Notes under the pieces: generated by a model | Database searches by the model: none | Told to the model about the DNA's origin: nothing | What the model saw: only the letters and a program-made list of their open reading frames with translations | Assembly: GCF_022869805.1 (NCBI RefSeq) | Contig: NZ_CP094974.1 | Coordinates: forward strand, 3,782,001 to 3,846,000 | Length of the DNA stretch: 64,000 nucleotides | Source: Halosolutus halophilus | GTDB lineage: Archaea > Halobacteriota > Halobacteria > Halobacteriales > Natrialbaceae | Direction of reading: 5' to 3' | In this document: piece after piece, positions 56,478-63,079 of the stretch | Numbering within the stretch: position 1 is the first letter of the stretch | How the letters are laid out: each line of letters begins with the position of its first letter | Program-made: the position numbers and the translations under genes

Positions 56478-57692
56478 TCACTTCTCGGTTCGGAACGCTA
56501 ACTGGCAGCCGTACGCGGGGCTGACTGGCGAGATGCGATCGCCGTCCGAGAGCCGGATCGACGTCGGCGGATCGGGTCGGGCCAGCGGCGCGTCGGCGTC
56601 GCGGCGGCGCTCGCGGCCGTGCCGAGAGAGGACGTACTCCCAGTCGGCGCTCCCGCGAACGTAGGTGCCGTTGAGGCTCCGGTCCCGAAGGTGCCAGGCC
56701 GACCCGTCGTACTCGATAACGGCGTGTTCCGGACAGAGGAACCGCTCGTCGTCGGGAAGGACGACGGTCGGAACCCGACGGTCCGCCGCCCAGCGGCCGA
56801 GGGTGTCGCCGGGACGAACGCGAACGGTGCGTCCGGACGGCTCGTGGACGAGTCGGGCGGATCGATCGGGAACGTCGAGGAACGGGACGAGCGCGTCGTA
56901 CAGGTCGCCGGCGTCGTCGAACCGGTCGCCGTGGTCGGGTGCGGTCGCACGACGGATCGGTTCGGCGAGCGACGCGGGGCAGTTCGCGGGGAGAGCCTGC
57001 GGATCGACCGCCTCTCGCGCCGCGGACGACTCCGCGTTCGCCGTTCCGGTCATCAGAAACGCGAGAAACGCCCCCAGCGCGTACACGTCTGACCACGGAC
57101 CGATCGGCGCGTTGCGAGCGCCCGTCCGCGTCAATTCGGGCGGTTTGAACGGATCGCGACGGAAGCGGACGTCGGGGTCCGTCTCGGTCGAGACCGCGGC
57201 GTTCAGGTCGATCACTGCGGGCTGGCCGGATCGACGAACGAGGACGTTGCTCGGCTTCAGATCGAGGTGTGAGACGCCGTTCCGGTGGAGGAACTCGAGC
57301 GCTCTGCAGACGGGGCCGCCGATCTCGCGAACGCTCTCGAGGGAGGGGGCCGGTGGCCCCTCGCGGCCGAAGACGTCGTCGACCGAGCCACGGCGGATCA
57401 GTTCCGTGGCGACGTACACCGCGTCCCCGCTGACCGCACCGTCGACGAAGCGGACGAGCGAACCGGGACTCGGGTCGCCCTCGAAACGGCGGAACCACTG
57501 CAGTTCTCCCTGGAAGTGCGCCCGGACCTGCTCACGCTCGTGTGAGCCGTCGTTCTCGCACTTCAGCGCGACCGGCAGTCCTCGCTCGCAGTCGGTCGCT
57601 CGCCAGACCGTCGCGAGACCGCCGGCGGCGATCCGTTCCTCGAGTCGGAACCGATCGTCGACCGTCGTCCCGTTCCGTTCGTCAGTCGTCAT
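56478..57692 (-). CDS. Ser/Thr kinase-like protein with C-terminal FHA domain, degenerate active site
   Basis: 404 residues from the ATG at 57692 (a GTG one codon earlier). The kinase fold spans ~12-270, but motifs are altered: the Gly loop reads IAAGGLATVW (first Gly replaced by Ala), the catalytic loop SHLDLKPSNVLV (HRD becomes HLD), and the metal loop VIDLNAAV (DFG becomes DLN). The VALK Lys, both Asp and the FKPPEL/APE-like motif remain. An FHA domain follows (~285-400) with GDTLGRW and SLNGTYV. It may be weakly active or a regulatory pseudokinase. It lies 81 bp downstream of the PP2C gene. Confidence 0.9.
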   Translation of the reverse strand: MTTDERNGTTVDDRFRLEERIAAGGLATVWRATDCERGLPVALKCENDGSHEREQVRAHFQGELQWFRRFEGDPSPGSLVRFVDGAVSGDAVYVATELIRRGSVDDVFGREGPPAPSLESVREIGGPVCRALEFLHRNGVSHLDLKPSNVLVRRSGQPAVIDLNAAVSTETDPDVRFRRDPFKPPELTRTGARNAPIGPWSDVYALGAFLAFLMTGTANAESSAAREAVDPQALPANCPASLAEPIRRATAPDHGDRFDDAGDLYDALVPFLDVPDRSARLVHEPSGRTVRVRPGDTLGRWAADRRVPTVVLPDDERFLCPEHAVIEYDGSAWHLRDRSLNGTYVRGSADWEYVLSRHGRERRRDADAPLARPDPPTSIRLSDGDRISPVSPAYGCQLAFRTEK

Positions 57693-57776
57693 CACGTCAC
57701 GCTCCGGCGGGAGATCGTTCGACGCGCACCGCGACCGATCGGCTCGACGGCCGCAGGCGGTCGAGAACCGGCCCGA

Positions 57777-59438
57777 CTACGTACAGAAGCCACTGAAGGG
57801 CCTCCCGCCGGTCGGGTCGCTCCAGCGCGTCCGATTCCGGGCGTGATCGAGCGTCGAGAAGAACCGGAACGTGATCGGGTCGGCGTTCCGGGGGTCCTCG
57901 AGCGTGAACGCCGTCCCGTCTTGCAGTCGCGACGTCTCCTCGAGGTCGCCCTCGACGGCAGCACTCGGGTCGAAGCCGTGCTCTCGGTGCAGTTCCGCAC
58001 CTTTACTGGAGAGAAGAACCGTCCACTTTCCGCCCTCCGCCTCGACGAACGTTCCGGTAGCACTGATATCGCGAACGCGCCAGTGCCCGTCCTCGTCGAG
58101 TTCCAGGCGGGCGTGATTTCGCTCGACGGGTTCGTCGTCGTCGATGACGAGACCGATGTTCGGGCCGTGTTCGCCGTTCCCGGTGTTTCGTCCGATGGTG
58201 ACACCGTCGACGATCTCGAAGATCGTCTCGTCGCCCGCGATCGTGACCGCTGCCTTCGGGGGGTCGCCGTCACCGGCCGAGACGACCTTCGCTGTCCCGC
58301 CCGACGCGTTCGAACCGCCGTGAGAGGCGTTCGACCCGCTCGCGTTACGGGACGACCCCGATCCGCCGCCGGAATCGGACTCGGCGTCGTCTTCCGGCGG
58401 ATCGATGATCGTTTCTTGATTCGTTATCTCCTGGAAGTCAGTCGCCGCGCCGCGGAACGGAAGCGAATCGGGCGACGCGTTCGCGTCGGAGTCCCTGGCC
58501 AGCGTGACCGAGAGATTATCCTTGCCGCCGCGCTCGTTGGCGAACGAGACGAGTTGCTCGACGGCTTCCTGGAGGCCGTCGGCCCCGAGAACGATCTCCC
58601 GGATCTCGTCGTCGGTTACCAGCGTATCGAGGATCGACTCGCGGACGGCCTCCATATCCGTCGCCTGCTGGTACTCATCCCGGAGCGAACGGTTGTCCGG
58701 GAAGGCGTCGATCAGCCCGTCGCTCGTGAACATGATGATGTCGTCGCGATAGACATCGGTGGAACCGAACTCGACGTCCACGCTCGGTCGGCCGTGGGCG
58801 GAGCCACCGACGACGTTCGTGATGGCCGTCGCGTCGGGATGGATGCGCGCGTACACCTCGTCGTCGATCTCGCCCTTCTCGAGCAGTTCGTTGGTGACGG
58901 CGTGATCGCGCGTGAGTTGCCTCGCCTCTTCGTGTCGCTCGTTGATGAGATAGATACGACTGTCGCCGACCCAGCCGTAGTAGAGACAGCCGTCGACGTA
59001 GACGCCGACGACGAGCGTCGTCGCCGGCCGACCTCCGATTTCGCCGGCGAACTCCTGGACGTGCTGGTGAGCCGCGTTGACGCTCTCCTGGATCGCGGTT
59101 CGGATCCGATCTTCGGAGAGCGCCGCGGCCGGGTTGGCGCCACTCGTCGGTGGCGTCCCCTCGTAGGCGTCGATGCCGAACCGTTCGGGGACGTCGGTTC
59201 CCGGTCCGAGGATGGCGTCCGTGAGTCGCTTTCTGACCACGGTCGTCGCCAGCAGGGAGGCGACGTCGCCACAGTCCTCGCCGCCGACCCCGTCACCGAG
59301 GACGAAGATGCCGACGGGCCGTTCCGTCTGCCGGTGATGGTTCTCGAAGACCGCCGTCGCGATGGCGTCTTCGTTGATTCCGCCGCGTCGTTGCTTCCGT
59401 GCGCCGATGTCGATGGTACTCGCGTATTCCATAGTCAT
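57777..59438 (-). CDS. PP2C-type protein phosphatase with C-terminal FHA domain
   Basis: 553 residues from the ATG at 59438, overlapping the kinase stop by 4 nt (ATGA). The PP2C domain (~1-270) has all metal motifs: GDGVGGEDCGDVAS, GWVGDSRIYLI, MFTSDGLIDA and GGKDNLSV. A Ser/Asn/Gly linker (~315-350) joins it to an FHA domain (~365-545): VTIGRNTGNGEHGP, VERNHARLEL and TGTFVEA. It would remove phosphates placed by the coupled kinase, while its FHA reads phospho-Thr. PP2C-FHA fusions are unusual. Confidence 0.94.
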   Translation of the reverse strand: MTMEYASTIDIGARKQRRGGINEDAIATAVFENHHRQTERPVGIFVLGDGVGGEDCGDVASLLATTVVRKRLTDAILGPGTDVPERFGIDAYEGTPPTSGANPAAALSEDRIRTAIQESVNAAHQHVQEFAGEIGGRPATTLVVGVYVDGCLYYGWVGDSRIYLINERHEEARQLTRDHAVTNELLEKGEIDDEVYARIHPDATAITNVVGGSAHGRPSVDVEFGSTDVYRDDIIMFTSDGLIDAFPDNRSLRDEYQQATDMEAVRESILDTLVTDDEIREIVLGADGLQEAVEQLVSFANERGGKDNLSVTLARDSDANASPDSLPFRGAATDFQEITNQETIIDPPEDDAESDSGGGSGSSRNASGSNASHGGSNASGGTAKVVSAGDGDPPKAAVTIAGDETIFEIVDGVTIGRNTGNGEHGPNIGLVIDDDEPVERNHARLELDEDGHWRVRDISATGTFVEAEGGKWTVLLSSKGAELHREHGFDPSAAVEGDLEETSRLQDGTAFTLEDPRNADPITFRFFSTLDHARNRTRWSDPTGGRPFSGFCT

Positions 59439-62147: not shown

Positions 62148-62170
62148 AATCGTACGACACGCCGTTCGTA

Positions 62171-63079
62171 CTACAGGATCACGTCGATTTCGGCACGGTC
62201 GGCGAGTTCGAGCGTGTCACCGTCCTCGAGTTTCGCGTCGGAACCGTCCATGGCAGTCCCGTTGAGTTTCGTTCCGTTCGTACTGATATCGGTCACGTAG
62301 AAGCCGTCGTCTTCGACCGAGAACTCGAGGTGGTCGCCCGAGAGGTACCGGGCTTCCTCGCGTCCGCCGCTGGCGGCGACCAGATCGGCGAGCCACTCCT
62401 CGTCCCGTCGGCCGAACACGTCTCCGTCACCGAACGTGTACTGTTCGCCGTCGATCTCGAGCGTGACTTCCTCGGGGACGGCGTCGTCGTCACCGTCGTC
62501 GCCGTCGTCGCCGTCGTCGCCGTCGTCACCGTCGTCGACCGCTCCACCCTCGCGGACCGCGTCCAGATCCGTTCCACAGCCCGGACAGAACGCCTCGTCG
62601 TCGACCGAGTTGCCACAGTCCGGACAGGCGGTGAGTTCCGCCGACTCGTCCTCGTCCGCCTCGCTCTCGTCTTCCTCGTCCTCGAGTTCCGCACCGCAGT
62701 TCGGACAGAACGCTGCCGACGCGTCGACCGCCGAGTCACACGACTGGCACTCGATCGTCGCCGGGTCGTCGGCGTCCGCCTCGTCCTCGGCGCCTTCGAC
62801 ATCGGCTCCGTCGTCGTCCTCGTCTTCGGCGTCATCCGCGTCGGCTTCGGCCTCGTCCTCCTCGTCCTCGGCGTATTCTACCTCGACCGAGTCGTCGTCG
62901 GCCGGTGCTTCGTCGCCGGTTTCGTCCCCGTCGCCGTCCCCTCCGGTACCGTCGGCGTCGTCGGCCGGTGCTTCGTAGTCCGGGTGTGGCGTATCACAGT
63001 TCGGACAGAATCCGCCGTTCGGAGATGGATCGAACGTCGTTTCACACGAGACGCAACTGAATTCGGTTTGTTCTGCCAT
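62171..63079 (-). CDS. Multi-zinc-ribbon protein with C-terminal FHA domain
   Basis: 302 residues. Three double-CxxC zinc ribbons: CVSC/CPNC (~9-28), CQSC/CPNC (~110-129) and CPDC/CPGC (~151-168), separated by Asp/Glu/Ala-rich linkers. A GDD triplet repeat linker leads to the FHA domain (~205-300): FGRRDEEWLADLV, LSGDHLEF and STNGTKLNG. No catalytic domain. It should bind phospho-Thr partners and a nucleic acid or protein through the ribbons, so it is a natural adaptor for the kinase cluster. Divergent promoter shared with the membrane protein at 63,293. Confidence 0.9.
   Translation of the reverse strand: MAEQTEFSCVSCETTFDPSPNGGFCPNCDTPHPDYEAPADDADGTGGDGDGDETGDEAPADDDSVEVEYAEDEEDEAEADADDAEDEDDDGADVEGAEDEADADDPATIECQSCDSAVDASAAFCPNCGAELEDEEDESEADEDESAELTACPDCGNSVDDEAFCPGCGTDLDAVREGGAVDDGDDGDDGDDGDDGDDDAVPEEVTLEIDGEQYTFGDGDVFGRRDEEWLADLVAASGGREEARYLSGDHLEFSVEDDGFYVTDISTNGTKLNGTAMDGSDAKLEDGDTLELADRAEIDVIL

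Follow-up and report, generated by a model that had tools for sequence, protein, structure and literature searches.

The system described here lies towards the end of a 64,000-nucleotide stretch of the Halosolutus halophilus genome (NZ_CP094974.1, positions 3,782,001 to 3,846,000), referred to below as the window. Five consecutive open reading frames (ORFs) occupy the minus strand within positions 56478-63079 and encode a zinc-ribbon-FHA adaptor, a VWA protein, a Ser/Thr kinase with an FHA domain (kinase A, KinA), a PP2C phosphatase with an FHA domain and a second kinase-FHA protein (kinase B, KinB). The ORFs and domains listed in an initial annotation of the window are all present. The FHA domain is found in four of the five proteins at 29.7-33.6 bits (Pfam cut-off 20.7), and the kinase (Table 1), PP2C_2 (42 bits), VWA (74 bits) and DZR (40 bits) domains likewise exceed their curated Pfam cut-offs. 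The ATGA coupling of kinase and phosphatase is also as described, with the KinA stop and the PP2C start sharing these four nucleotides at 59438-59435. When the whole genome (5.06 Mb, one contig, complete) is searched for FHA domains, matches are obtained at this cluster only.

The gene set is not assembled by chance. A VWA profile searched over 392 genomes of the order gives a match in 65 of them. With loci counted where the VWA match has an E-value below ~1e-100, the genes for the VWA protein, KinA and PP2C stand together at 59 of 59 loci in 57 genomes, and the zinc-ribbon-FHA adaptor is found at 58 of these. The co-occurrence of homologs on which the initial annotation had made its proposal depend is therefore borne out. 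Six loci with weaker matches (E above 1e-70) were inspected and all six are without such a cluster, and a phylum-wide sample of 393 genomes contains no VWA match outside the order. A search for PP2C-FHA in 125 genomes of the same family, in which 20 kb was read around each match, finds the gene together with the genes around it in some twelve genomes. The order adaptor-VWA-KinA-PP2C(-KinB) is kept in eleven relatives, with KinB missing in three, and a twelfth locus (L045) is divergent and rearranged. The operon of a second family within the order runs VWA, KinA, PP2C and adaptor, followed by a related membrane protein. KinB itself is detected at 13 of the 59 loci and is missing from most loci beyond close relatives.

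The five-gene extent originally described holds for the minus strand, and the unit continues into a divergent gene at 63293. This sixth component is a membrane protein whose gene diverges from that of the adaptor and is cut by the window end (complete at L048:7294-8550). The protein is composed of about six hydrophobic helices (counted by eye and from model helices), a long Ser-rich linker, the motif SDTRIFVDDF and a C-terminal zinc ribbon, the latter two being encoded just past the window end. The gene adjoins the cluster in 11 of 11 close relatives, at the other end where KinB is missing. The membrane-protein family flanks 49 of the 59 loci, and four more have a different protein whose tail is of this kind. 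Linkage of the membrane gene to the cluster was assessed from the loci, the tail-profile matches and the empty site described below. The membrane families of the two lineages are homologous, with a probability of 98.9% in a profile comparison. The output, given as unknown at the outset, is narrowed by these observations to one candidate, the conserved membrane tail protein.

All five specified residues of the tail motif T-x-I-F-x-x-D-F are invariant in 12 orthologues of the membrane protein, and the mean top-residue frequency of the linker is 41%. Shuffling of the linker reached T[RQ]IFxxDF in 0 of 2000 trials. The membrane proteins of the second lineage carry TRV[FY].P in 10 of 10 cases, and the conservation of the C-terminal ribbon of the tail is similar to that of the motif. 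In the genome under study, a profile of motif and ribbon gives one full-length match (2.3e-23), the next being a match to the ribbon only (1.3e-5). In seven other cluster genomes the strong full-length matches adjoin the cluster, and the same profile finds the full tail in none of 15 genomes without the cluster.

The region from KinB through the membrane gene is gained or lost as one 8.3 kb block, since its flanks are nearly contiguous in the relative G064: one match ends at window position 56298, and ~18 bp further on the next begins, at window position 64613. The same empty site, with contiguous flanks, is seen in G060 (L211 and L212 for the two genomes). The site is bordered by a gene for an F420-type oxidoreductase and a 137-amino acid gene, and in the same-genus genomes G015 and G016 (L209, L210) it holds other genes. 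The cassette is sporadic even within one genus. An assignment to a mobile element was considered and rejected, as plasmid and phage records contain no close relative of the VWA protein; the empty site still shows gain or loss of the block.

The catalytic centres of the encoded enzymes are retained. In KinA the Gly loop, Lys, YRD, Asn and the Asp of the DFG position are present, in KinB the catalytic residues take the form HLD and DLN, and PP2C conserves the metal-site motifs GDGVGG, SDG and KDN. The proposal of a complete write, erase and read set is upheld to this extent: the genes are co-inherited and their catalytic motifs are intact, with a phospho-relay as the presumed activity. The FHA domains differ in the state of their phospho-Thr pockets. 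Those of the adaptor and KinA are intact as judged from the alignment, and S247, H250, N268 and the ribbon Cys pairs of the adaptor are conserved among its orthologues. The PP2C FHA domain has Glu at the pocket Ser position and lacks the NG Asn in 9 of 9 orthologues compared, and because of these changes it is unlikely to read phospho-Thr in the usual way. Its outline is kept and the pocket Glu is conserved, and it may act as a pseudo-FHA interaction domain. In the KinB FHA domain the pocket Ser position varies. The earlier view of FHA domains on writer and eraser as two phospho-readers is not sustained by these residues. The description of a three-ribbon adaptor fits most orthologues, which have three CxxC..CxxC ribbons, and fails in three Halovivax-type relatives in which the middle ribbon is eroded.

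The VWA protein has a complete metal-ion-dependent adhesion site (MIDAS), with D47, S49, S51, T116 and D147 invariant. Its AlphaFold2 model (predicted local distance difference test, pLDDT, 82) contains a split beta-sandwich, the VWA domain and a C-terminal four-helix bundle. Compared with PDB sequences, the VWA profile is closest to ArnB of Sulfolobus (8s05, 5.1e-15) and its paralogue 5a8j. Foldseek returns 4fx5, ArnB 8s05 (E 1.7e-24, TM (template modelling) score ~0.67-0.71) and 5a8j, with Sec23/24 lower in the list. The predicted fold of the scaffold is thus ArnB-like. The C-terminal tail of the protein, NTTVVYDAGRFD, is modelled with low confidence and is probably disordered. The spacing of its motif equals that of the membrane-protein tail, and ETRIV and ATKIV stand at this place in the second lineage.

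Table 1. Window coordinates of the cassette, its genes and the features within them.
Feature	Position	Strand	Basis or remark
KinB, kinase-FHA, HLD/DLN motifs	56478..57695	-	Pkinase 82 bits
PP2C phosphatase with C-terminal degenerate FHA, 553 aa (amino acids), ATGA-coupled to KinA	57777..59438	-	Pfam PP2C_2 and FHA
Degenerate FHA of PP2C	58041..58202	-	Glu at pocket Ser position, no NG Asn
KinA, Ser/Thr kinase-FHA, RD-type	59435..60709	-	Pkinase 102 bits; YRDLKPDN, IIDFT
KinA FHA domain, predicted canonical pocket	59624..59782	-	Pfam aa 310-362
VWA scaffold, 402 aa	60755..61963	-	Pfam VWA; AlphaFold2; Foldseek
VWA C-terminal tail NTTVVYDAGRFD, second TxPhi[FY] candidate phospho-site	60758..60793	-	Conserved in close relatives
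Zinc-ribbon-FHA adaptor, 302 aa, putative ArnA-like reader	62171..63079	-	Pfam DZR and FHA above cut-off
Adaptor FHA domain, pocket residues intact in alignment	62204..62353	-	Pfam FHA aa 243-292; alignment with GarA
Adaptor zinc ribbon 3, ~aa 149-172	62564..62635	-	C152, C155, C165, C168 invariant
Adaptor zinc ribbon 2, ~aa 110-132	62684..62752	-	Pfam Zn_Ribbon_1
Adaptor zinc ribbon 1, aa 9-28	62996..63055	-	C9, C12, C25, C28 invariant
Membrane protein (sixth component), 418 aa	63293..64000, runs to 64549	+	Ser-rich tail, SDTRIFVDDF, C-terminal zinc ribbon
Cassette, 8.3 kb	56299..64612 (window part 56299..64000)	.	Missing as one block in G060, G064

Directly before the adaptor start (63080-63130), ~50 nucleotides with the sequence GTTCTGGCATACTTTTTTCTATTGTGACTGAGAAAGTGCGCTGAATACC are nearly identical in five genomes, and the middle of the intergenic region differs. 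This element is a possible promoter or leader control element. A separate locus in genome G095 (L047:2-9327) contains four kinase genes beside a distant PP2C and zinc-ribbon proteins, and is probably another haloarchaeal kinase/PP2C system.

The features above suggest, with a probability of roughly 55%, that the cassette is a phospho-Thr module of the ArnA/ArnB type, with kinase(s) and a PP2C of its own and a membrane protein as its target. As proposed, KinA, with KinB helping or tuning, would phosphorylate the Thr of T-x-[IV]-[FY] in disordered tails, its substrates being the C-terminal end of the VWA scaffold and the tail of the membrane partner, with Thr375 as the candidate residue in the latter. 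The phospho-Thr would be bound by the adaptor and KinA through their canonical FHA domains. Adaptor and membrane partner would both dock on the VWA scaffold by their zinc ribbons, in the manner of the ArnA zinc finger on ArnB, and PP2C would reset the switch. The output would be the assembly or release of a complex at the membrane, and the physiological role is probably envelope or stress adaptation.

Several points weigh against this module. Many loci come from close relatives within one large genus, and the 59 loci are not 59 independent events. At six loci (L045, L093, L099, L170, L175, L177) no convincing tail protein is found nearby. The AlphaFold2 model of the membrane protein is poor (pLDDT 53), and its function is therefore unreadable from structure. 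A Pfam-A scan of the VWA protein up to E 10 gives no match to ArnB_C (IPR040929), and the likeness of the tail to the GarA motif concerns about five residues. Phosphorylation of the motif, its binding by FHA domains and the docking of the ribbons are inferred.

The tail is also found outside the membrane-protein family. A short and different membrane protein ends in the same tail in the metagenome-assembled genome G131, and a HEAT-repeat protein bears it in G326. In G359, the cluster is flanked by about six proteins with TxVF/ribbon tails, including a cold-shock protein, PQQ beta-propellers and unknowns (L098:399-4142, L163:6181-10640). The output types that bear the tail thus comprise membrane proteins with several or two transmembrane helices, cold-shock, HEAT-repeat and beta-propeller proteins. 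TxPhiF motifs within the kinases, PP2C and adaptor were left uncounted, as they are sporadic or lie in folded domains. It may tentatively be proposed, with somewhat less than even odds, that the C-terminal TxPhi[FY] and ribbon tail is a portable phospho-tag that marks clients of the kinase-PP2C-FHA-VWA core, and that varied output domains could be attached to this tag. A single archaeal kinase cassette would in that case control a number of outputs by way of a common tag, and the targets of the kinase would be readable from sequence. Beside the divergent cluster at L099 (16217-19900), a 1228-amino acid protein ends in DDETSETIIMQPG repeats that resemble a series of candidate phospho-Thr motifs.

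Three other explanations were weighed against the membrane-acting module. The cassette could be the haloarchaeal equivalent of ArnA/ArnB as a regulator of archaellum, pili or DNA-damage genes, in which adaptor and scaffold control transcription and the membrane protein has no more than an accessory or sensory part. The scaffold fold matches ArnB, the adaptor has the architecture of ArnA, and ArnAB is a repressor of archaellum genes and, in S. islandicus, also of ups pili genes (PMC6509490, PMC10470591). However, no archaellum or pili genes were recognised among the identified neighbours of the cassette in a search that was not exhaustive, the cassette is sporadic within a genus, and the neighbour that is conserved is the membrane tail protein. 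This regulator is considered unlikely.

The tail could instead be a tag that serves the VWA scaffold constitutively in docking, degradation or assembly, with phosphorylation taking place elsewhere, for example in the scaffold helix bundle as in ArnB. The comparable conservation of ribbon and motif would agree with such a tag, as would the binding of unphosphorylated ArnB by the ArnA zinc finger and the position of the ArnB phospho-Thr sites in the helix bundle (PMC12852372). Nevertheless, neither the 12 orthologues nor the second lineage show any variation at the Thr, the tail matches the GarA phospho-motif, and the phospho-Thr pockets, intact by alignment, have no other obvious conserved ligand besides the scaffold C-terminus. 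A tag that works without phosphorylation is accordingly judged improbable. Least probable is a KKP-like antiphage or toxin-antitoxin-like system, with kinases that are toxic without PP2C and arrest growth on infection: it would suit the two kinases and the PP2C with FHA (PMC11341870), the sporadic cassette at a variable site and the matches of the kinase domains to PADLOC kinase models, but these matches span essentially the kinase domain only and were discarded as evidence of a defence system, neither kinase has the cold-shock domain suggested as the KKP hallmark (PMC11341870), KinB is missing at most loci and phage records gave no match.

The cassette adds a complete, co-encoded kinase/phosphatase/FHA/VWA switch that is common in Halobacteria. 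Archaeal Ser/Thr kinases are usually without known targets, and the candidate Thr375 can be tested in halophiles with good genetics.

TerY-P and yegI-yegK-yegL are bacterial kinase/PP2C/VWA triads, the former being defined by its association with Ter genes. Further triads of kinase, PP2C and standalone VWA protein are associated with GAP1-N2 (PMC7159879). The same three enzyme and scaffold types are co-encoded in the haloarchaeal cassette, and the bacterial kinase sometimes carries a zinc ribbon. The FHA adaptor and the membrane partner with its tail motif set the cassette apart, and no GAP1-N2 gene was recognised. The parallels with TerY-P and type VI secretion drawn in the initial annotation are weaker, and assignment to either was rejected. 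TerD (PF02342) is missing from the whole genome, with control genomes giving matches, and the TagH model of the type VI secretion pathway (TIGR03354) scores 33 bits against a cut-off of 120, with no secretion gene recognised at the locus.

KKP shares with the cassette two kinases, one with FHA, and PP2C, which are adjacent in the window. A cold-shock domain on the kinase has been suggested as defining for KKP, which is described in Gram-negative bacteria only and mostly in prophages (PMC11341870). Membership was rejected on the Pfam domains of both kinases; KinB is dispensable here, and the VWA protein, adaptor and membrane partner are additional.

The closest archaeal system is ArnA/ArnB. Archaeal FHA proteins have been stated to be conserved only in Crenarchaeota (PMC10470591), and passages of another account mention ArnB-like products in Halorubrum and leave their partners undescribed (PMC12852372). 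ArnA is a zinc-finger-FHA protein in which, by experiment, the zinc finger binds unphosphorylated ArnB and the FHA domain binds phospho-ArnB (PMC12852372). The pairing of such a protein with a three-domain VWA protein ending in a helix bundle is common to both systems (PMC6509490, PMC12852372), and the claim that the haloarchaeal set looks new for archaea has to be corrected for this pair. Control by eukaryotic-type kinase and phosphatase and the reading of phospho-Thr by FHA, predicted here, are also shared, and the adaptor ribbon columns match the ArnA chain 8s05_C weakly (E 0.0023). ArnA/ArnB works with the kinases ArnC/ArnD and PP2A, whereas kinase(s) and PP2C are here part of the same cassette, carry FHA domains and are accompanied by an adaptor with three ribbons, where ArnA has one. 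The conserved membrane tail protein is a further difference, and no arl genes were recognised beside the cassette. As the Pfam ArnB_C model is unmatched, the cassette is called ArnAB-like and not a member of ArnA/ArnB.

The tail motif finds its counterpart in the GarA/OdhI switch (PknB/PknG; 2kfu, 6i2p). GarA carries VETTSVFRADF, with phospho-Thr22 in 2kfu (PDB sequences), and in both systems a Thr is followed by PhiF and then D-F (ETTSVFRADF and SDTRIFxxDF). The Thr lies in an acidic tail, and an FHA domain is the reader, here by prediction. The invariant motif and the apparently intact pockets of the adaptor and KinA would be compatible with phosphorylation and binding of the GarA type. In GarA, motif and FHA domain reside in one soluble protein whose output is metabolic enzymes, whereas in the haloarchaeal cassette the motif is placed in a separate membrane protein together with a zinc ribbon.

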